NCBI RefSeq assembly: GCF_029318685.1
Contig: NZ_CP119677.1
Coordinates: forward strand, 3,463,001-3,527,000
Origin: Ruminiclostridium papyrosolvens DSM 2782
Lineage (GTDB): Bacteria; Bacillota; Clostridia; Acetivibrionales; DSM-1351
Length of the DNA stretch: 64,000 nt
Direction: 5' to 3'
Within the stretch, counting starts at the first letter, position 1. Each line of letters starts with the position of its first letter. Shown in pieces: positions 1 to 9,226 of the stretch. A model generated the notes under the pieces. It ran no database searches, was not told where the DNA came from, and saw nothing but the letters and a program-made list of their open reading frames with translations. Position numbers and translations under genes: made by a program.

Positions 1-1274
1 ATGCCTTCTGGCGTCTTTCTGGCCTTTAACTTAAAGGTAGTCTTTTCATATTTTATAAGTTTTACGGCAAGATTTCTGCTACCAAGTTCATCCATGCTAT
101 AACTGGCTCCACAGGTGGTGCATATAAACAGTGTTTCTGAGAACCTGTTTTTTCTGGTGTTGCTTCCGCACACACAACATGTATGGAAAATATCTACAGA
201 ACTTACTTTTGCAGGAACAGGCAATCCCTTTTGCGGAAGCTTGTAATCCAGCACTCTTACAAGGTCATTGTACATTTTACAACCGTATGCAGGTTTATGC
301 ACAGTCCCTTCTTCCCTCCAGCTGAGTTTGTCGCCCTTACCCACAAGGTTCTGAAGAATTACCATCGATTTGTTTTTCAAGGCTATATCTGCTATGGTGT
401 TTGCCATTTTACAGATAATTTGTTTTCTATCCTTTGTATTTTTGCAGTTTTCAAGGCTTCCCTTTGTAATAGAATTTCCTTTTTCATCTGCGATTGTGTA
501 ATTAATATCGTTTCTGATACCCCTGCTGACGCCCATAAACGTTGTAGTTTTTATCTCCTGCTCCTCTGGCAGGTTAATACTCATACTCAGAAAGTACTCA
601 TTATTTTTCCACAACAACCGTGCCGTCCGAAGTATTTCAGGTCTCTCAACTGCTTGACTAAGCATGTCCTCCTGCCATTTTCCGAATGAAAGGGGAACTA
701 TTATGAAGGTTTCCCTTTTTAAACTTTTGGCAGGCTCCGGGCTTTTTGATATATATATAAGTTCCCTGTTATTAGCGGCTATTTTACGTACTTTGGCATT
801 TTTAATATTCATCAGGAACAGTTTAGCAAAGTACTTGTTGCTGTCAGGATCATAAAGTAAGCAAAAACTTCTTTTTGTGTCATACCTGCAAAAATAAATA
901 GGTCTTAGCTTTTCATTTACCTGAACATTATCTTGTCTGAAATTCGGAAACACCATATCGGGTTTTGTTTGTTTCTGAGCAAAATAACTTGCCATCGTCA
1001 TCCCAAAGTCAAGCTTCAAAGAATCCTTAAACGGCTGTACATCAAAATTGTTCAATTCGTTTGATATTCTACTGTCTATCCATTTTGAAAGAGACAGTGT
1101 ACTGTAGGTCCCCTTTGGGGATTTATAATTACTCTCAATGTCATCTATATTATCAAAAGCAGTTTTTAACAAATAATTAAATGCATTATTATAATTTTCA
1201 AATGCCTTTTGAATTATTTCACGTTTAAGCTTACCGGGTTTGTGAATTTTTAAATGTATTGTCCGAAGACCCAA
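1..1274 (-). CDS. TnpB-like protein with degenerate RuvC site (TldR-like), C-terminus outside window
   Basis: The 424 visible codons have IS605 OrfB/TnpB architecture: a basic N-terminus (RTIHLKIHKPGKLKRE), a RuvC-like core and a zinc finger with CVCG and CTTCG pairs. RuvC-I reads MGVSRGIRND, with Ser250 where active TnpB has Asp. RuvC-II reads MVILQNL, with Gln308 where the catalytic Glu belongs. RuvC-III keeps Asp395 (SMDELGSRNLA). Two of three catalytic acids are therefore replaced, as in nuclease-dead TnpB homologues (TldR) that act as RNA-guided repressors. I chose a TTG start at 1274 because the purine-rich GGGAGGGGGAG lies 5 nt upstream and the homology begins just after it. It starts 16 nt after the SpoIIE-like gene stops, so it is probably the last gene of that operon. 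No TnpA gene is seen. Any guide RNA would lie downstream, outside the window. Alternative: a decaying IS605 relic. Confidence 0.8.
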   Translation of the reverse strand, partial: MGLRTIHLKIHKPGKLKREIIQKAFENYNNAFNYLLKTAFDNIDDIESNYKSPKGTYSTLSLSKWIDSRISNELNNFDVQPFKDSLKLDFGMTMASYFAQKQTKPDMVFPNFRQDNVQVNEKLRPIYFCRYDTKRSFCLLYDPDSNKYFAKLFLMNIKNAKVRKIAANNRELIYISKSPEPAKSLKRETFIIVPLSFGKWQEDMLSQAVERPEILRTARLLWKNNEYFLSMSINLPEEQEIKTTTFMGVSRGIRNDINYTIADEKGNSITKGSLENCKNTKDRKQIICKMANTIADIALKNKSMVILQNLVGKGDKLSWREEGTVHKPAYGCKMYNDLVRVLDYKLPQKGLPVPAKVSSVDIFHTCCVCGSNTRKNRFSETLFICTTCGASYSMDELGSRNLAVKLIKYEKTTFKLKARKTPEG

Positions 1275-1289: not shown

Positions 1290-2462
1290 CTAGCAATACT
1301 CTATACTGATATGTTTTCCCGTATGTGTAAGCAATGCGGCCAGTTCTTCCACCAGCTTGAATTTCATACCCATGTTAAGGGGAAATTCAGGATTCTGATG
1401 TGCCGGATTCATCGCCCTTCCAACAAAGAAATATATACTTGTACTCTCCTCAAGGAGCATTTTTGCCAGCCTTGAAGCACCATCTTTTTTATTTAGCTTC
1501 AGCATATCTCCCATACCACTCTCAGGTGAAACGCAGGCTTTCAACAAATCAAGTGTTTTCCTAAGGGTAAGTACACCTTCTGTTGTCAGGTTTATACCTT
1601 CTATCTCTGCCGTAGGAGGAACCGCAGGATTAAAGTACTCTATAGATGTCTTAATTTCCTTCCCCAAAACTCTGGCAACAATTTGAGACGTAGTACCGCC
1701 GCAAATAACTTTTTTTCCTTCGTTTCCTATAAAACGAGATACAATCTCATCATCCCGTGTAGAATCCACAGGCGGCCCTATCATCAGGTTCAGCTTAACA
1801 GGTTTTTTTGCTTTAAGGGTAACAACTGTAGTGTCGTCACCGGGTTCATGTGAATAAAGGTTATCACAGGCTGACAACAAAAGTTTTGCAAGTGTCTTCG
1901 AGGATGCATCCTTTTTATAGGTCTTTTGTATATATTCACTGACATTATCCCACTGCCACCCCAAATTTAGTGTCTGTCCTATTCCCGCATGGATAACTCC
2001 ATCGCTTATCATTACAAATAAGTCGTCAGGACTGACTTTGAATCTGGCTTCCTTTATAAGCTTATCGTTAACGACCCTGCTTTCTGTCTCCAGATTCAGC
2101 ATCTTACCTTTTCTAAGCCTTACTACTGAAGGATTATCAAATTCGGCCAAGTAACCTTCACCGTTATTGAATATTTGTATTATGGAGAAAGTTGAGTAAG
2201 CAACTCCTCTCTCTTTGCAGACAGGGAGAGTTTTTGCAACCGTATTAACAGCCTCTTCTATATCCAGACCATTCGACATAATTGTACCTATAATCTTAGA
2301 AGTAAGAGTTGCAAGTATGTTTGCTTTTACACCACTTCCCAGACCATCAGCCAAAACCACTACCACTGAATCAGGGCTTCTGATTATTTCTACCTTGTCT
2401 CCGCATAATTCTTCTCTATATTTATTTATACTTTCGTAACTTACATCAATATACAGGCTCAC
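1290..2462 (-). CDS. SpoIIE-family protein phosphatase (PP2C-like)
   Basis: A 390-residue PPM/SpoIIE-type serine phosphatase. The N-terminal half has the metal-binding loop VVVLADGLGSG (about residues 34-44), then FVMISDGV and the late GDDTTVVTLKAKKP, all hallmarks of SpoIIE phosphatases. The last ~160 residues (from LNLMIGPP) are an extra domain I do not recognise by name. No membrane segments are visible, so it is probably cytoplasmic and not the large SpoIIE of sporulation. The GTG start overlaps the stop of the upstream sensory-hydrogenase gene by one base (TAGTG), implying translational coupling. Proteins of this type recur next to PAS-containing [FeFe]-hydrogenases, so I infer it relays a hydrogen or redox signal by dephosphorylating an unknown target. 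Confidence 0.85.
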   Translation of the reverse strand: MSLYIDVSYESINKYREELCGDKVEIIRSPDSVVVVLADGLGSGVKANILATLTSKIIGTIMSNGLDIEEAVNTVAKTLPVCKERGVAYSTFSIIQIFNNGEGYLAEFDNPSVVRLRKGKMLNLETESRVVNDKLIKEARFKVSPDDLFVMISDGVIHAGIGQTLNLGWQWDNVSEYIQKTYKKDASSKTLAKLLLSACDNLYSHEPGDDTTVVTLKAKKPVKLNLMIGPPVDSTRDDEIVSRFIGNEGKKVICGGTTSQIVARVLGKEIKTSIEYFNPAVPPTAEIEGINLTTEGVLTLRKTLDLLKACVSPESGMGDMLKLNKKDGASRLAKMLLEESTSIYFFVGRAMNPAHQNPEFPLNMGMKFKLVEELAALLTHTGKHISIEYC

Positions 2463-4186
2463 TATAATTCACCCATCTCTGACATAATGGATTTTTTAAG
2501 CTTGGTTAAAGCTACCTTGGTTTCGGCAGTAGTTTCACCAAGCAGACTTGCTATCTCCTGAGCCACTGTCATTTGTTTTTCCATAATTTTCTGAGCAATA
2601 TCTATATTCTGAGAACGACTTTCCAGAATTTTCTGCCTCTGGGCCTCCTCTTTCGTAATATCATTTATTATAACTATAACAGTATTATGTTGTTTTACTT
2701 TTATAATGGACTGTTTTACTACCAGACCGTAACTTTCGTAAACATATTTTTCATCATACACACTTTCTGAACCTTCTAGCACCTGTTCAAACTCATCACA
2801 GGGAAGAATTTCTGAAATACTTTTTCCATTCATGTTTCTGGCTCCCAGATTGAACATTTGCTGCGCTGACTTGTTAAGCTCCTGTATTTTAAGGCCTTCA
2901 TCAAGAGCAAAAATTGCATAAGGTGTATAATTTATAATTATGTTTGAAATAGATTCAGCCCTTTCCCTCATATAGGGAAGACACATATGAACCTGAGCTT
3001 TGCCGTGGAAAACGGCTGTAGCCTTTTCCCTGCAGGAGTGATAACCGCAGGCTCCGCAGTTGAGTTCTTTGTCCTTGCTGAATTTTCCAATGCTGTTCAA
3101 TATACCTTGTATTACCGCCTCTGACGGTACATCCAGCTTCTTTGACCTGTCAACGAATTTCTTCTTTAAGTCAACCTTAGTCAAAGCCATTACAGTGTTG
3201 GTTAAACCTGAATCAGTTTGAATACCTGTTCTTTTAGCATAGTTCAAAAGCCTCTCTCTTGCAGTGAGAAATCCTCCCGGCACATGCTTCATACAAGGGC
3301 CGCCTAAACATCCTCCCTTACAACTGCTCATTTCAATCAGGTAGTTTTCAATATCCCCTTCTACTATGGATTGAAGAACATCCATGCATCGTTCAACACC
3401 GTCCACACTAATGGATCTGTAGTTCTTTTTATATTTTCTGTCAATGGTCTTCAGAATTCCGCCGGGTACGGGATATATTCTCGCTGACGTATCAAAGTTT
3501 TTTAATCCGTCAATGATTTCATTTGACTCGTACAGTCCTTCTTCTTCAAACCACTTGTCCAAATCATCAAAAGTCACTACAGCATCAATCTGATTGCCGT
3601 TTTGAAGGTCATTAAATTCTTCTTTCTTTGAAATACAAGGACCTATAAATACTACTCTGATTCTTTGTCCGTATGTTTCCCTGAGCATTTTAGCATGAGC
3701 TATCATGGGAGAAACCACAGGAGCAAGCTGATCCAACAACTGAGGATAATATTTTTCTATAAGTAATATTATTGATGAGCAGCAGCTGGTTATGATATTT
3801 TTCATTTTCTTCTGCTTCAAAAGACTCTCATACTGTCTTGATACCTGATAAGCACCGTTAGCTGTTCCTTCGATGTGTGTAAACCCAAGCTTTTTCAGAG
3901 CATAATAAACCCACTTTTCATCATGGTCAAATGCAGAAATAAATGAAGGTGCCAGACTTACATAAACTTTTTCACGCTTCTGTATAAATTTTTTGACTTT
4001 TTCAACATCGCTGTTAACGCTTTTTGCATTCTGAGGACATACCGTTAGGCAATTTCCACAGAGCATGCACTCGTCATGTATGATTTCAGCCTGATCGTTT
4101 TTAAATGCAATAGCGTTCACAGGGCAGCTTCGTATACATTTATAACAGTTTTTACAGTTCGCTTCTTTAAATTGAATTACGCTCAT
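2462..4186 (-). CDS. PAS-containing sensory [FeFe]-hydrogenase (HydS-like)
   Basis: 574 residues. Two N-terminal 4Fe-4S motifs (Cys11/14/17/21 and Cys40/43/46/50) precede an H-cluster domain with modified signatures: TSCCSS (about 133-138), GPCISKKEE, and SSCKGGCLGGPC. A further Fe-S module (CGACGYHSC...C) is followed by a PAS domain and a C-terminal coiled segment. Catalytic hydrogenases have TSCCPxW, MPCxxKxxE and MACPGGC, so the altered residues plus PAS match the group C sensory type. It probably senses H2 or redox state and signals to the SpoIIE-type phosphatase whose GTG start overlaps its stop codon. The ATG has GGAGG 7 nt upstream. No DNA-binding domain is visible. Family placement is firm; the signalling role is inferred. 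Confidence 0.88.
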   Translation of the reverse strand: MSVIQFKEANCKNCYKCIRSCPVNAIAFKNDQAEIIHDECMLCGNCLTVCPQNAKSVNSDVEKVKKFIQKREKVYVSLAPSFISAFDHDEKWVYYALKKLGFTHIEGTANGAYQVSRQYESLLKQKKMKNIITSCCSSIILLIEKYYPQLLDQLAPVVSPMIAHAKMLRETYGQRIRVVFIGPCISKKEEFNDLQNGNQIDAVVTFDDLDKWFEEEGLYESNEIIDGLKNFDTSARIYPVPGGILKTIDRKYKKNYRSISVDGVERCMDVLQSIVEGDIENYLIEMSSCKGGCLGGPCMKHVPGGFLTARERLLNYAKRTGIQTDSGLTNTVMALTKVDLKKKFVDRSKKLDVPSEAVIQGILNSIGKFSKDKELNCGACGYHSCREKATAVFHGKAQVHMCLPYMRERAESISNIIINYTPYAIFALDEGLKIQELNKSAQQMFNLGARNMNGKSISEILPCDEFEQVLEGSESVYDEKYVYESYGLVVKQSIIKVKQHNTVIVIINDITKEEAQRQKILESRSQNIDIAQKIMEKQMTVAQEIASLLGETTAETKVALTKLKKSIMSEMGEL

Positions 4187-4271: not shown

Positions 4272-4532
4272 CTATACCAACTTGCCTTCAATTGTGTTGA
4301 TTACTTTCTCTTTAAAGAAGCTTTCGGCACTTATAACGCCTACGTCTCCATAAAAAGTATCGCCTATTTTAACGCAAACACCTGTTGTGCAATGCCCCAT
4401 ACAAAAGGACGCCTTTAATTCAACTCTGCTTTCAAGATTATTATCCTTTATCATTCTTTGAAAACAGTTGATTATCTGATAAGACCCCTTCAAATGGCAG
4501 GAACTACCAACACAAACATATATATCAAGCAT
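4272..4532 (-). CDS. Small thioredoxin-like [2Fe-2S] ferredoxin (NuoE C-terminal type)
   Basis: An 86-residue protein matching the thioredoxin-fold [2Fe-2S] domain of NuoE/HydC: IYVCVGSSCHLKGS near the N-terminus and ASFCMGHCTTGVCVKI in the middle supply the four Cys ligands. It lacks the NuoE helical N-terminal domain and so should be a soluble electron carrier. The ATG at 4532 is preferred over an upstream GTG because GGCGGTGG lies about 5 nt before it. It is the first gene of the operon leading into the sensory hydrogenase, 85 nt downstream, and has its own promoter with a Rex-like site. It may deliver electrons to the sensor; that is inference. Confidence 0.8.
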   Translation of the reverse strand: MLDIYVCVGSSCHLKGSYQIINCFQRMIKDNNLESRVELKASFCMGHCTTGVCVKIGDTFYGDVGVISAESFFKEKVINTIEGKLV

Positions 4533-4550
4533 ATATTCCACCGCCTATGT

Positions 4551-4985: not shown

Positions 4986-6674
4986 TTAATGTTTTCCATC
5001 TCTGTGGAGAATATGTCTGTTGCTGTTCAGAACGCCGTTATACAAAGCGTCTATAGTTGGATTGTCATCTGAACGTTTGATTGGCAAGGACTTATCTACC
5101 TTGTATATACCTTTTGCTCTTAATTTTCTTACATTTTCATTCTGAGGAATAGGCTGTCCTGCACCGCCTATACACCCTCCCGGGCAAGCCATTACTTCAA
5201 TAAAGTCGAATTTTTCTTCCCCGCGCTTTATTTTTCTGATTAGCTTTTCAGCATTTTTAAGTCCGTGAACTACTCCGATTCTTACGGTTCTCCCGTCAAT
5301 TTCAGCTGTGGCTTCTTTGACGCCTTCCATACCTCTGACTCCTGAATATGAGATGCCTTTCAGGGCTGAAGCGTTTCTTTCCTTGTAGTAATAACGAAGT
5401 ACTGCTTCGGATACACCTCCGCTTACACCGAATATTACACCTGCTCCGCTGGTAAATCCAAAAGGCATATCAATAGCTTCGTCTTCGAGCTCATTAAACA
5501 CGATACCGTTTTCCTGTATCATAATAGCCAGTTCCTGTGTGGTTATAACCATATCTACCTGTCTTTCACCGTTTATAGCGTTTTCAGGTCTTGCTGCTTC
5601 ATATTTCTTTGCTGTACACGGCATTATGGCAATAACTATGTTTTCTTTTTCTTCGGAAAACTTTTCTTTTTTAAACTGTTCTTTTATAACTGCTCCGAAC
5701 ATCTGCATTGGAGACAGACAGGAGGACACATTTTCCATAAGTTCAGGATGCTTTTGCTCTGCATATTTGAACCACGAAGGGCAGCAGGAGCTGAACAAAG
5801 GCAGTTTTTCCTTTCTCTGAATTCTGTCCATGAGCTCTTCCGCTTCTTCTATAACAGTCAAATCGGCACCAACCGCTGTGTCAAATACCTGATCAAAACC
5901 AAGCTTTCTGAGTGCTGCAACAATCTTACCCATTGATATCTGTCCGGGTTGAAGTCCGAAATCTTCTCCGATTGCAACACGTACTGCAGGCGCTATCTGA
6001 GCTATTACGCGCTTGTTTTTGTTCTGAAGTGCCTCATATGCTCTGTCAATATCTTTCTTTATCATCAATGCTCCGGTAGGACAAACTACCCTGCACTGAC
6101 CGCAGTTAACGCAATCCACTTCCTGCAATGATTTATTGAAGGCAGTTGTTACCTGAAGATTTGATCCTCTGTAAGCAAAATCCAGTACCCCAACGCCTTG
6201 AATTTCCTGACACGCTCTTACACAGTCTCCGCAAAGTATACACTTGTTTGGATTTCTGATTATAGATGGCCCAAGGTCATCTATAGGCATCTCTTTCTTT
6301 TCCTGCCCGAACCTTACTTTCTTTACTCCAACCTTTAAAGCTATTTCCTGCAGCTTGCATCTTCCGCTCTTTTCACAGGTTGTACAATCTCTGTCATGAT
6401 TGGCAAGGAGAAGCTCTAATATCATTTTTCTGTGCTTCTTGAGCTTATCTGTATTTGTCCATACCTCCATACCATCCTTAGGAGGCGTTGAACATGAGGT
6501 TATGGTGCTGCCCCATTTATCCTCAACCATACACATTCTGCATGCACCGTAAACACTGAGCTCTGAGTGGTAGCAGAAGGTAGGAAGCTCAATGCCTGCT
6601 CTCCTGATTACTGCCAGTATATTTTTTTCATCTGTATATTCAACCAGTTGACCGTCAATTATCATAGTTCCCAT
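4986..6674 (-). CDS. hydA: NAD-linked [FeFe]-hydrogenase catalytic subunit HydA
   Basis: 562 residues. The N-terminus carries a [2Fe-2S] domain (Cys around 34, 45 and 48), the His-Cys 4Fe-4S motif (HDRDCTTCEKSGRC) and two 4Fe-4S clusters (CILCGDCVRAC and CVNCGQCRVVC). The H-cluster domain shows SSCCPSW, IMPCTAKKYE and VMACPGGCIGG, the three catalytic signatures. It should reduce protons with electrons arriving through HydB/HydC. In related clostridia this trimer couples NADH and ferredoxin oxidation (electron-confurcating type). The ATG is preceded by AAGGAGG 11 nt upstream. The hydB stop lies only 6 nt before it, so the three genes form one operon, closed by the hairpin at 4932-4973. Confidence 0.95.
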   Translation of the reverse strand: MGTMIIDGQLVEYTDEKNILAVIRRAGIELPTFCYHSELSVYGACRMCMVEDKWGSTITSCSTPPKDGMEVWTNTDKLKKHRKMILELLLANHDRDCTTCEKSGRCKLQEIALKVGVKKVRFGQEKKEMPIDDLGPSIIRNPNKCILCGDCVRACQEIQGVGVLDFAYRGSNLQVTTAFNKSLQEVDCVNCGQCRVVCPTGALMIKKDIDRAYEALQNKNKRVIAQIAPAVRVAIGEDFGLQPGQISMGKIVAALRKLGFDQVFDTAVGADLTVIEEAEELMDRIQRKEKLPLFSSCCPSWFKYAEQKHPELMENVSSCLSPMQMFGAVIKEQFKKEKFSEEKENIVIAIMPCTAKKYEAARPENAINGERQVDMVITTQELAIMIQENGIVFNELEDEAIDMPFGFTSGAGVIFGVSGGVSEAVLRYYYKERNASALKGISYSGVRGMEGVKEATAEIDGRTVRIGVVHGLKNAEKLIRKIKRGEEKFDFIEVMACPGGCIGGAGQPIPQNENVRKLRAKGIYKVDKSLPIKRSDDNPTIDALYNGVLNSNRHILHRDGKH

Positions 6675-6680
6675 TGTTAT

Positions 6681-8552
6681 TTACGCCTCCTTTATTGCTG
6701 CAAATGGACATGCTTCCAGACAGGCACCGCACTTGATACATTTTGACTGATTAATTGTGTACGGCTCCTTAATCTTTCCTTCAATTGCCTGAACTGGACA
6801 TATTCTGGCACATTTGCTGCAGCCCTTGCATTTTTCCTTTTCTATTACTATATAAGCCAGAGCTTTACAGGTATGTGTTTTGCACTTCTTATCTATAACA
6901 TGTTCCAGATATTCATCTCTGAAATATTTCAAAGTACTTACAACAGGGCTTGCAGCTGACTTACCCAGTCCGCATAATGCCGTGCTGCTTATGGTATCTG
7001 CCAACTCCTCAAGTAAATCAAGGTCTTCTTTAGTACCTTTGCCGTTTACTATCTTTTCAAGGATTTCAAGCATTCTCTTGGTTCCTTCACGGCATGGCAC
7101 ACATTTTCCGCAGGATTCGTTCTGTGTAAAGTTCATGAAGAACCTTGCTACTTCAACCATACAGGTGTCTTCATCCATTACAACCAGTCCGCCTGAACCT
7201 ATCATTGCTCCTACTTTTTTAAGTGAATCAAAGTCCAAAGGTAATTCCAGATGTTCCTCTGTGAGACATCCTCCTGAAGGACCTCCTATCTGAACTGCCT
7301 TAAATTTCTTGTTGTCCTTGATACCTCCACCGATATCAAATATTACTTCCCTCAAGGTTGTTCCCATTGGAACTTCTATCAACCCTGTGTTGTTAACGTT
7401 TCCGGTTATGGCAAATGCTTTTGTTCCGGGACTGTTTTCAGGCCCAATACCTTTATACCATTCACTTCCATTTATTATAATTGAAGGAACATTGGCATAT
7501 GTTTCTACATTGTTAAGTACTGTCGGCTTTTCCCAAAGTCCTTTTTCAACCGTTCTTGGAGGTTTTACCCTTGGCATTCCTCTTTCGCCTTCTATTGACG
7601 CGGTTAATGCACTTCCCTCACCACATACAAAAGCTCCTGCACCTTTGTTTATATTTATATCAAATGAAAATCCGGAATTTAGTATGTTCTCACCCAACAT
7701 TCCGTGCTTTCTAGCATCTTCAATAGCTATTCTTAATCTTTCAACTGCCAGAGGATATTCTGCTCTGACATATATATATCCTGAAGTACTTTTGGTTGCA
7801 TACCCGGCTATAGTCATACCTTCGATTACACCGTGAGGATCACCCTCCATAATACTTCTGTCCATGAAAGCTCCGGGGTCGCCTTCGTCTCCATTACAGA
7901 CAACGTATTTAATTTTGCTGTCCTGCTTTAACACTTGCTGCCACTTTCTACCTGCCGGATAACCTCCGCCCCCTCTTCCTCTGAGGTTGGAATCCAGTAT
8001 TGACTGACATACTTCCTGAGGCTCCATATCAAACAGTACTTTGCCAAGAGCCTGATAACCGCCCTTTGCTACATATTCGGCAAAGGATTCTGCATTGATG
8101 CTTCCGCAGTTTTTAAGTACCATTCTTGTCTGCTTTTTATAGAAAGGGATGTCTTCATGTGCCTTATATACCTTATTGTCTGCTGAATACATTAGTCTTT
8201 CAACAGCTTCGTCGTTTATAAGGGTTTTAGCTACTATTTCTTCACAATCTTCTATCTGAACTCTCAAGTACAAGTAATTTTCAGGTTCTATTCTTACCAA
8301 AGGTCCCATTTCACAAAAACCGTGGCAACCGCTCTTTTTAACTCCTATGCCTTCTTTTTCATAATCCAGTTCAAGGTCCACTAAAAGCCCTTTTTCATTT
8401 ATAAGCTCTTTGATTCTGTTGTATATCTCTAAAGCTCCTCCGGCTACACAACCTGTTCCCGCACACACCAGAACCTTCTTTTTTTGCTTTTCCAGTGCTT
8501 GTATTGACCTGTCAGAAAAGGCTTTAAATTCTTGCAAATCATTAATTTTCAT
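6681..8552 (-). CDS. hydB: Hydrogenase NADH-oxidising subunit HydB (NuoF-like)
   Basis: 623 residues, built as HydB of trimeric hydrogenases. An N-terminal thioredoxin-like [2Fe-2S] domain (VCAGTGCVAGG; GCHGFCEMGP) is followed by the NuoF core with the FMN/NADH-binding glycine-rich segments (LRGRGGGGYPAGRKW; GAGAFVCGEGSAL) and the cluster motif ESCGKCVPCREGT. Two C-terminal 4Fe-4S motifs (CKGCSKCARICP; CIKCGACLEACP) finish the chain. It takes electrons from NADH via FMN and passes them to HydA; it is also where bifurcation is thought to occur in this family. Its ATG overlaps the hydC stop by one base (TAATG), indicating coupled translation and fixed subunit ratios. Confidence 0.95.
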   Translation of the reverse strand: MKINDLQEFKAFSDRSIQALEKQKKKVLVCAGTGCVAGGALEIYNRIKELINEKGLLVDLELDYEKEGIGVKKSGCHGFCEMGPLVRIEPENYLYLRVQIEDCEEIVAKTLINDEAVERLMYSADNKVYKAHEDIPFYKKQTRMVLKNCGSINAESFAEYVAKGGYQALGKVLFDMEPQEVCQSILDSNLRGRGGGGYPAGRKWQQVLKQDSKIKYVVCNGDEGDPGAFMDRSIMEGDPHGVIEGMTIAGYATKSTSGYIYVRAEYPLAVERLRIAIEDARKHGMLGENILNSGFSFDININKGAGAFVCGEGSALTASIEGERGMPRVKPPRTVEKGLWEKPTVLNNVETYANVPSIIINGSEWYKGIGPENSPGTKAFAITGNVNNTGLIEVPMGTTLREVIFDIGGGIKDNKKFKAVQIGGPSGGCLTEEHLELPLDFDSLKKVGAMIGSGGLVVMDEDTCMVEVARFFMNFTQNESCGKCVPCREGTKRMLEILEKIVNGKGTKEDLDLLEELADTISSTALCGLGKSAASPVVSTLKYFRDEYLEHVIDKKCKTHTCKALAYIVIEKEKCKGCSKCARICPVQAIEGKIKEPYTINQSKCIKCGACLEACPFAAIKEA

Positions 8553-9025
8553 TATCCTTCACTCCTCAAAGTCTTTATTATTTCAATTGTTGAATCAGGC
8601 GTCATTTTAGCGTATACCTTATCATTTATTGTAATAACCGGTGCAAGTCCGCAGGCTCCCAAACAGGAAACTGTTTCAACTGTAAACAGCTTGTCATCTG
8701 TAGTGTGTTTGCTTTCAGACAGGCCCAGTTCTTTTCTCATTGCATTTAATATAGGAATTGATTTTCTTACGTGACAAGCTGTACCGTCACATACTTTAAT
8801 AATGTATTTTCCCTTAGGCACCAAAGAAAAGTTTTCATAAAACGTAGCTACACTGAATATCTTTGAGAGATTAATCTCCAGCTTTTCAGCTACATAATTC
8901 AAAACATCCTCGGGCAAATATTTGTATTCGTTCTGGATTTCCTGTAAAACTGCTATCAGGTGCGATTTATTGTTGTCGTGCTTATTTAAAATCCCGTTAA
9001 CCAGACTGCATTTGCAATCATCCAT
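8552..9025 (-). CDS. hydC: Hydrogenase subunit HydC (NuoE-like)
   Basis: 157 residues of NuoE/HydC type: a helical N-terminal domain (LIAVLQEIQNEYKYLP, EKLEINLSKIFSVATFY) and a C-terminal thioredoxin-fold [2Fe-2S] domain with CDGTACHVRKS and CLGACGLAP. The ATG at 9025 is chosen over one 39 nt upstream because GAGGAGGG lies 8 nt before it. It is the first gene of hydCBA. Upstream are a good promoter (9100-9128) and a Rex-like palindrome (9078-9095), so expression probably follows the NADH/NAD+ ratio. Confidence 0.93.
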   Translation of the reverse strand: MDDCKCSLVNGILNKHDNNKSHLIAVLQEIQNEYKYLPEDVLNYVAEKLEINLSKIFSVATFYENFSLVPKGKYIIKVCDGTACHVRKSIPILNAMRKELGLSESKHTTDDKLFTVETVSCLGACGLAPVITINDKVYAKMTPDSTIEIIKTLRSEG

Positions 9026-9077
9026 CTTGTTTTCCCTCCTCAAGTACTTATAAAGTGCATTCACTTATCAGATATCT

Positions 9078-9095
9078 TTGTTATTTTTTTGACAA
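9078..9095. promoter_or_regulatory. Candidate Rex operator, hydCBA
   Basis: TTGTTATTTTTTTGACAA matches 12 of the 14 defined positions of the Rex consensus TTGTTAA-N4-TTAACAA. It sits directly after the -10 box, over the predicted start site. It is weaker than the near-perfect site at 4551-4568, but the identical placement in a functionally linked operon supports it. Confidence 0.5.
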
Positions 9096-9099
9096 TATA

Positions 9100-9128
9100 A
9101 TTCTAGCCAGAGGAATACCTTCTGCCAA
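9100..9128 (-). promoter_or_regulatory. Sigma-A promoter of hydCBA
   Basis: Minus-strand -35 TTGGCA (9128-9123), 17-bp spacer, -10 TAGAAT (9105-9100); each box differs from consensus at one base. The leader to the hydC ATG is about 65 nt. Confidence 0.6.
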
Positions 9129-9226
9129 TGTTTATATAGAAATACAATGTCTGAAATTCAGTTATAGATAAGGTTTTTGGAATTTATTTCAAAAAATGAT
9201 AAGGATAATTCGTTAAAAGAATACAA

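Follow-up and report, generated by a model that had tools for sequence, protein, structure and literature searches.

A nuclease-dead TnpB homologue as a candidate RNA-guided transcription factor of a clostridial hydrogenase operon

Introduction

In Ruminiclostridium papyrosolvens DSM 2782, the last gene of an [FeFe]-hydrogenase operon encodes a TnpB homologue with a predicted inactive nuclease site, here called dTnpB, which raises the question of what such a protein does in a metabolic operon. The gene crosses the left edge of the window, the 64,000-nucleotide stretch analysed here (positions 3463001-3527000 of contig C1 in the genome under study, G000, 5.03 Mb). Based on comparisons of catalytic residue loss, selection, synteny, RNA structure, site conservation, spacing and RNA–site match, we consider it likely that dTnpB is a domesticated transcription factor, RNA-guided and inherited vertically, that acts on H2/ethanol redox genes. 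More tentatively, we offer a more specific version, in which dTnpB is a chromosomal, vertically inherited RNA-guided activator derived from TnpB that uses a short, genetically fixed guide, is coupled to a hydrogen sensor and controls the genes for hydrogenase and alcohol dehydrogenase in cellulolytic clostridia. RNA binding, DNA binding, activation and the link to the co-encoded sensor and phosphatase are properties that we infer.

Results and discussion

Loss of catalytic residues in a gene under selection

Within the window, dTnpB occupies positions 1..1274 on the minus strand (open frame 3-1274), corresponding to the first 424 of 491 codons, with a TTG start at 1274 and GGGAGGGGGAG upstream of it. 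The gene, present as a single copy in G000, ends left of the window at C1:3462799 and encodes a protein of 491 amino acids. The NCBIfam model guided_TnpB matches residues 16-403 (E 1.4e-16, 60.8 bits, which is below the curated cut-off of 100), and the Pfam Cas12f1-like TNB domain matches residues 335-402 with a score just under its cut-off. All 17 orthologues aligned have the four zinc-finger cysteines, and proteins of the family are extended at the C-terminus by about 85 residues. When aligned with intact TnpBs (GVDFG / LENL / DADRVGxxN), the RuvC-I motif GVD is changed to GVS, with Ser250 in place of Asp, and the RuvC-II motif LEN to LQN, with Gln308 in place of Glu, while Asp395 of RuvC-III is kept; no nearby replacement acid was found in this alignment. 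A profile search of the solved small Cas12f-type chains 7wju/8dzj places the dTnpB columns at the RuvC-I position, the Glu and the final Asp; the RuvC-I position in these chains reads GIALG, and is itself an inactivated residue. The D-E-D triad of active TnpB nucleases is broken throughout the family: in 24/24 orthologues the RuvC-I Asp is replaced by S/A/G/T/V, and the RuvC-II Glu is retained in just 2/24. An AlphaFold2 prediction on two sequences had a mean pLDDT (predicted local distance difference test) score of 38.6 and was not used.

Relative to the closest species, the ratio of nonsynonymous to synonymous substitution rates (dN/dS) is 0.07-0.085, with values of 0.04-0.07 for the region of RuvC and the zinc finger. 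As far as sequence comparison can tell, this is an old gene, kept by selection, whose product is catalytically dead. The original prediction, which was made from the window alone, had described a complete TnpB layout with zinc finger, the two substituted acids next to a remaining Asp395, and a frame open over 424 codons that was not simply decayed. All of this agrees with the full-length gene, which runs to its stop after 491 codons with no early frameshift in the C-terminal part outside the window. No transposase gene or element ends were noticed near dTnpB. TnpB genes are often relics, but the probability that this one is a functionless, decaying transposon remnant is negligible, and is already contradicted by the dN/dS of about 0.08, 24 intact orthologues, fixed synteny and a conserved RNA.

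Distribution and association with HydS and PP2C

The 24 orthologues occur in Ruminiclostridium and relatives. Seventeen are found among 58 genomes of the order, including every Ruminiclostridium genome there but one, and 7 come from a sample of the class. A phylum sample of 398 genomes returned only G000 itself and generic TnpB-like matches, and no relatives were found in viral-contig scans with the queries tried. At every locus dTnpB is preceded by HydS and then a SpoIIE/PP2C phosphatase, mostly in one operon with nuoE-nuoF-hydA, and adhE lies in between in several lineages. Among the 58 genomes, dTnpB is present wherever the close HydS-PP2C subclade is, and nowhere else. It is missing from four genomes whose HydS-PP2C pair is more distant (about 48% identity), and the sole Ruminiclostridium genome without dTnpB also lacks HydS and PP2C. 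dTnpB is a vertically inherited operon gene, neither a phage nor a transposon gene.

A structured RNA downstream of the gene

The original prediction proposed to look past the left edge of the window for a conserved omega-RNA-like scaffold after the stop codon, and a structured RNA element is present directly 3' of the dTnpB stop in 24/24 loci. In G000, the candidate guide-RNA scaffold is at C1:3462720-3462796, just left of window base 1, followed by a presumed 10-nt guide tail, TATCTAGTTT, at C1:3462717-3462726, and a terminator hairpin at about C1:3462672-3462716, all on the minus strand and outside the window. P1 is a hairpin with a GCUGC loop that pairs with a 3' GCAGC strand to form a pseudoknot, and the intervening segment contains P2, which is optional, P3 (CUUAC-AGA-GUAAG) and a P4 hairpin. 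The pseudoknot is followed by UAUCU(A/G), a short tail and the terminator, the hairpin of which typically lies about 10 nt past the pseudoknot. In TnpB omega-RNAs, the pseudoknot strand is likewise directly ahead of the guide.

Base pairing is possible in 98.2% of cells, compared with at most 52.3% when the partners are slid, and both sides change in 12 of 19 pairs, pseudoknot pairs among them; because the structure was drawn from the same sequences, more weight should be given to the compensatory changes than to the proportion of cells that pair. A covariance model built from the dTnpB loci gives one strong match in each dTnpB genome of the order (17/17), while no match exceeds 26 bits in the remaining 41 genomes, and it is this absence that is informative. 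Weak matches to the model elsewhere were rejected, being without the scaffold and chance-like. The element has no Rfam match at gathering score, and is a previously undescribed RNA.

A promoter motif that matches the RNA tail

In a search made without reference to the RNA, CCGTATCT was the top over-represented word in 20 upstream regions, being present in 14 compared with 0.01 expected, and the relaxed motif CC[A/G/T]TAT[C/T][T/A] occurs in 17/20. The conserved word lies in ACC[G/T]TATCTA, which holds the first six bases of the RNA tail; TATCTA is also the sequence that comes right after the pseudoknot. In the window, the predicted dTnpB-RNA site AAACCTTATCTA (9165..9176, minus strand) consists of a presumed target-adjacent motif (TAM; ACCT) and TATCTA matching the tail. 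AAACCKTATCTA has one exact copy in the 5.03-Mb genome, namely this one in the hydrogenase operon promoter, and a weaker second site, TCCTTATCAT, is found about 30 bp further upstream (9196..9205, minus strand).

Action of the structured 3' RNA and the TnpB-derived protein on RNA only, e.g., on operon mRNA stability, with no DNA target, would agree with the position of the RNA within or beside the operon 3' end and with its terminator, but would leave the conserved promoter site and its match to the tail unexplained, and we regard this as very improbable. A somewhat less remote alternative, but still a poor prospect, is that the motif belongs to a conventional protein regulator, that TATCTA in the tail is coincidental, and that the dTnpB-RNA acts elsewhere or otherwise. 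The match is indeed short, just 6 nt in G000 and 5 nt in several other genomes, and there are exceptions in three to four genomes: G006 has TATTTA as its site, the G032 RNA has UAUCC, and no recognised site was found in G200 and G127, which have the RNA. The relaxed site pattern is close to the genome-wide background, and the whole 16-nt stretch after the pseudoknot gives no target excess over a reversed-pattern control, only its first six or so bases matching the site. UAUCU may belong to the scaffold, with chance accounting for some of the resemblance; the chance of meeting a given 5-nt word within a 9-nt motif, both strands considered, is estimated at about 1%. The short match, the exceptions and this possible role of UAUCU weigh against RNA-guided recognition. 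On the other side, the motif is missing from the intergenic DNA of the four HydS-PP2C operons without dTnpB, and the order and strand of its parts are as TnpB targeting requires. Exact matches extend over 7-10 nt in G022, G035, G137, G111, G009 and G207, and reach 10 nt in G111; G035, the only genome with an RNA reading UAUCUU, has TATCTT as its operon site. In a permutation test where phylogeny was not controlled, RNAs match their own sites better than in shuffled pairs (p = 0.004).

Further sites that were inspected are mostly inside genes. Intergenic extra candidates lie at iron alcohol dehydrogenases (G012, G137), at a second hydrogenase operon (G207) and at a ferredoxin/NAD(P)-oxidoreductase-like gene (G137), the usual promoter spacing being absent at the latter two. 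In G012, the local cluster is without AAACCKTATCTA, and the only copy sits in the iron alcohol-dehydrogenase promoter. The extra candidates in G137 and G207 (L212, L214, L219) suggest that some species may have a small redox regulon. Separately, a small protein of about 90 residues is encoded downstream of the RNA in two genomes (L038:~3260-3532, L043:12585-12878), with its own upstream copy of the motif ACCKTATCTA.

Site geometry and direction of control

The predicted operon promoter, TTGGCA-N17-TAGAAT, is at 9100..9128 on the minus strand; a promoter scan by itself is not above chance for it, and support for its position comes from cross-species comparison. All listed sites face the promoter in one orientation. 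The distance from TATCT to the -35 element of the best-scoring promoter is 41-42 bp in Ruminiclostridium and 52-56 bp in most others, with the site upstream. In tandem pairs, where the copies are 29-31 bp apart, the proximal copy is 23 bp upstream of the -35. Three spacing classes, set after seeing the data and including Ruminiclostridium sites that are not mutually independent, contain 26/27 of the top promoter predictions, compared with about 7% in shuffled sequence. The spacings differ by roughly whole helical turns, 42 being about one turn from 53, and 23 about three turns from 54. The argument for activation is wholly one of site geometry: the sites lie upstream in a fixed orientation, are sometimes in tandem and are spaced by helical turns. 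On this ground, the dTnpB-RNA probably acts as an activator rather than a repressor.

The same RNA-guided binding could instead silence the hydrogenase operon as negative feedback, with RNA polymerase or a nearby activator being hindered. Known TldR proteins, which are dead-RuvC TnpB homologues, silence the promoters they target (PMC13418256), and the operon encodes its own regulator, as is often the case with autorepressors. Sites that leave the -35 free, at set helical distances and sometimes in tandem, fit this poorly, and we consider repression unlikely. The TldR-like RNA-guided repressor of the original prediction can be kept in part: comparative evidence supports a nuclease-dead homologue that has a guide-like RNA and a candidate matching promoter site, but does not support the term repressor, given sites upstream of the -35 at three preferred distances.

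In the RNA-guided activation that we favour, the RNA bound by dTnpB would come from the operon's own 3' end, with the scaffold held by the pseudoknot beside a tail that is fixed and about 10 nt long. Roughly the first six tail bases (UAUCUA/G) would pair with DNA next to ACC[G/T/A], 23-56 bp upstream of the hydrogenase operon -35, and in some species also of the -35 in alcohol-dehydrogenase promoters. With its RuvC site dead, dTnpB and its RNA should remain on the DNA with no cutting. It would most likely help RNA polymerase, giving feedback control of H2/ethanol redox genes. Judging from their co-occurrence only, HydS and PP2C, the hydrogen sensor and the phosphatase encoded in the same operon, presumably tune this control by feeding H2 or redox state into it.

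The hydrogenase operon and its neighbours

The operon order is nuoE-nuoF-hydA-2Fe2S protein-hydS(PAS)-PP2C-dTnpB, all on the minus strand. Its first gene encodes a NuoE-like subunit (8552..9064), followed by a NuoF-like subunit (6681..8552), the [FeFe]-hydrogenase large subunit HydA (4986..6674) and a small thioredoxin-like [2Fe-2S] protein (4272..4541). HydS, a putative sensory [FeFe]-hydrogenase with a PAS domain, is at 2462..4186, and the PP2C/SpoIIE-type phosphatase is at 1290..2462, with its stop codon 16 bases ahead of the dTnpB start. Upstream of nuoE, on the same strand, TTGTCAAAAAAATAACAA (9078..9095) is a putative Rex-like box, judged by the Rex consensus. In four relatives without dTnpB (L121-L124) the order is adhE - HydS - PP2C - nuoE - nuoF - hydA, and the alcohol dehydrogenase is therefore linked to the sensor-phosphatase pair even when dTnpB is absent. 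To the left of the window, a conserved leader that precedes a TerC-like gene (AAAGGGGAGTAGCTT..., L002:15471-15615, minus strand) has the look of a yybP-ykoY manganese riboswitch, with an Rfam score of 13.9 bits, far under the gathering score of 45.

Comparison with known RNA-guided systems

TldRs are known from association with oppF, among others. Associations with fliC and csrA have been described, and a known TldR still silences when its guide is only 6 nt long, its seed spanning positions 1-6 (PMC13418256). dTnpB resembles these proteins in its inactivated RuvC site with an intact frame, an adjacent guide-RNA scaffold supported by structure and covariation, a stable coupling to non-transposon genes, and perhaps in a short seed next to a presumed TAM, with predicted matches of 5-10 nt beside ACC[G/T/A] in the promoter region and the exceptions noted above. 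It differs in being vertically inherited in a hydrogenase operon rather than at phage or flagellin loci, in a guide that the terminator truncates some 10 nt past the pseudoknot, in the C-terminal extension, in the varied small residues that replace the RuvC-I Asp, and in predicted sites upstream of the -35 that are activator-like, unlike promoter blocking. At the sequence level, dTnpB has the characters of a TldR and would work like one, but the geometry suggests a variant and not a plain member.

As for the IS200/IS605 TnpB/omega-RNA systems, the fold-level sequence layout, the zinc finger, the RNA encoded at the gene 3' end and the pseudoknot next to the guide are similar, whereas dTnpB has no catalytic site and a guide that is fixed across species. 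Nuclease-dead Cas12f proteins with sigma factors carry out RNA-guided transcription in Bacteroidetes, and are thought to turn promoters on. A natural nuclease-dead Cas12f-like protein and promoter activation would be common to both, but in the present case no sigma factor is encoded, the sites are on ordinary sigma-A-type promoters, and the partners are HydS and PP2C. A literature search for a hydrogenase-linked TnpB found none; the clade could figure in a supplementary list of the founding TldR papers.

In the literature consulted, the described regulators of the TldR type are found in phages or beside flagellin genes and act by repression, whereas dTnpB would be part of the core metabolic machinery in cellulose-degrading clostridia. 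If our reading is correct, a defined RNA, a single predicted site in G000 and probable activation would make natural RNA-guided activation directly testable, and with it the question of how hydrogen-sensing hydrogenases signal.
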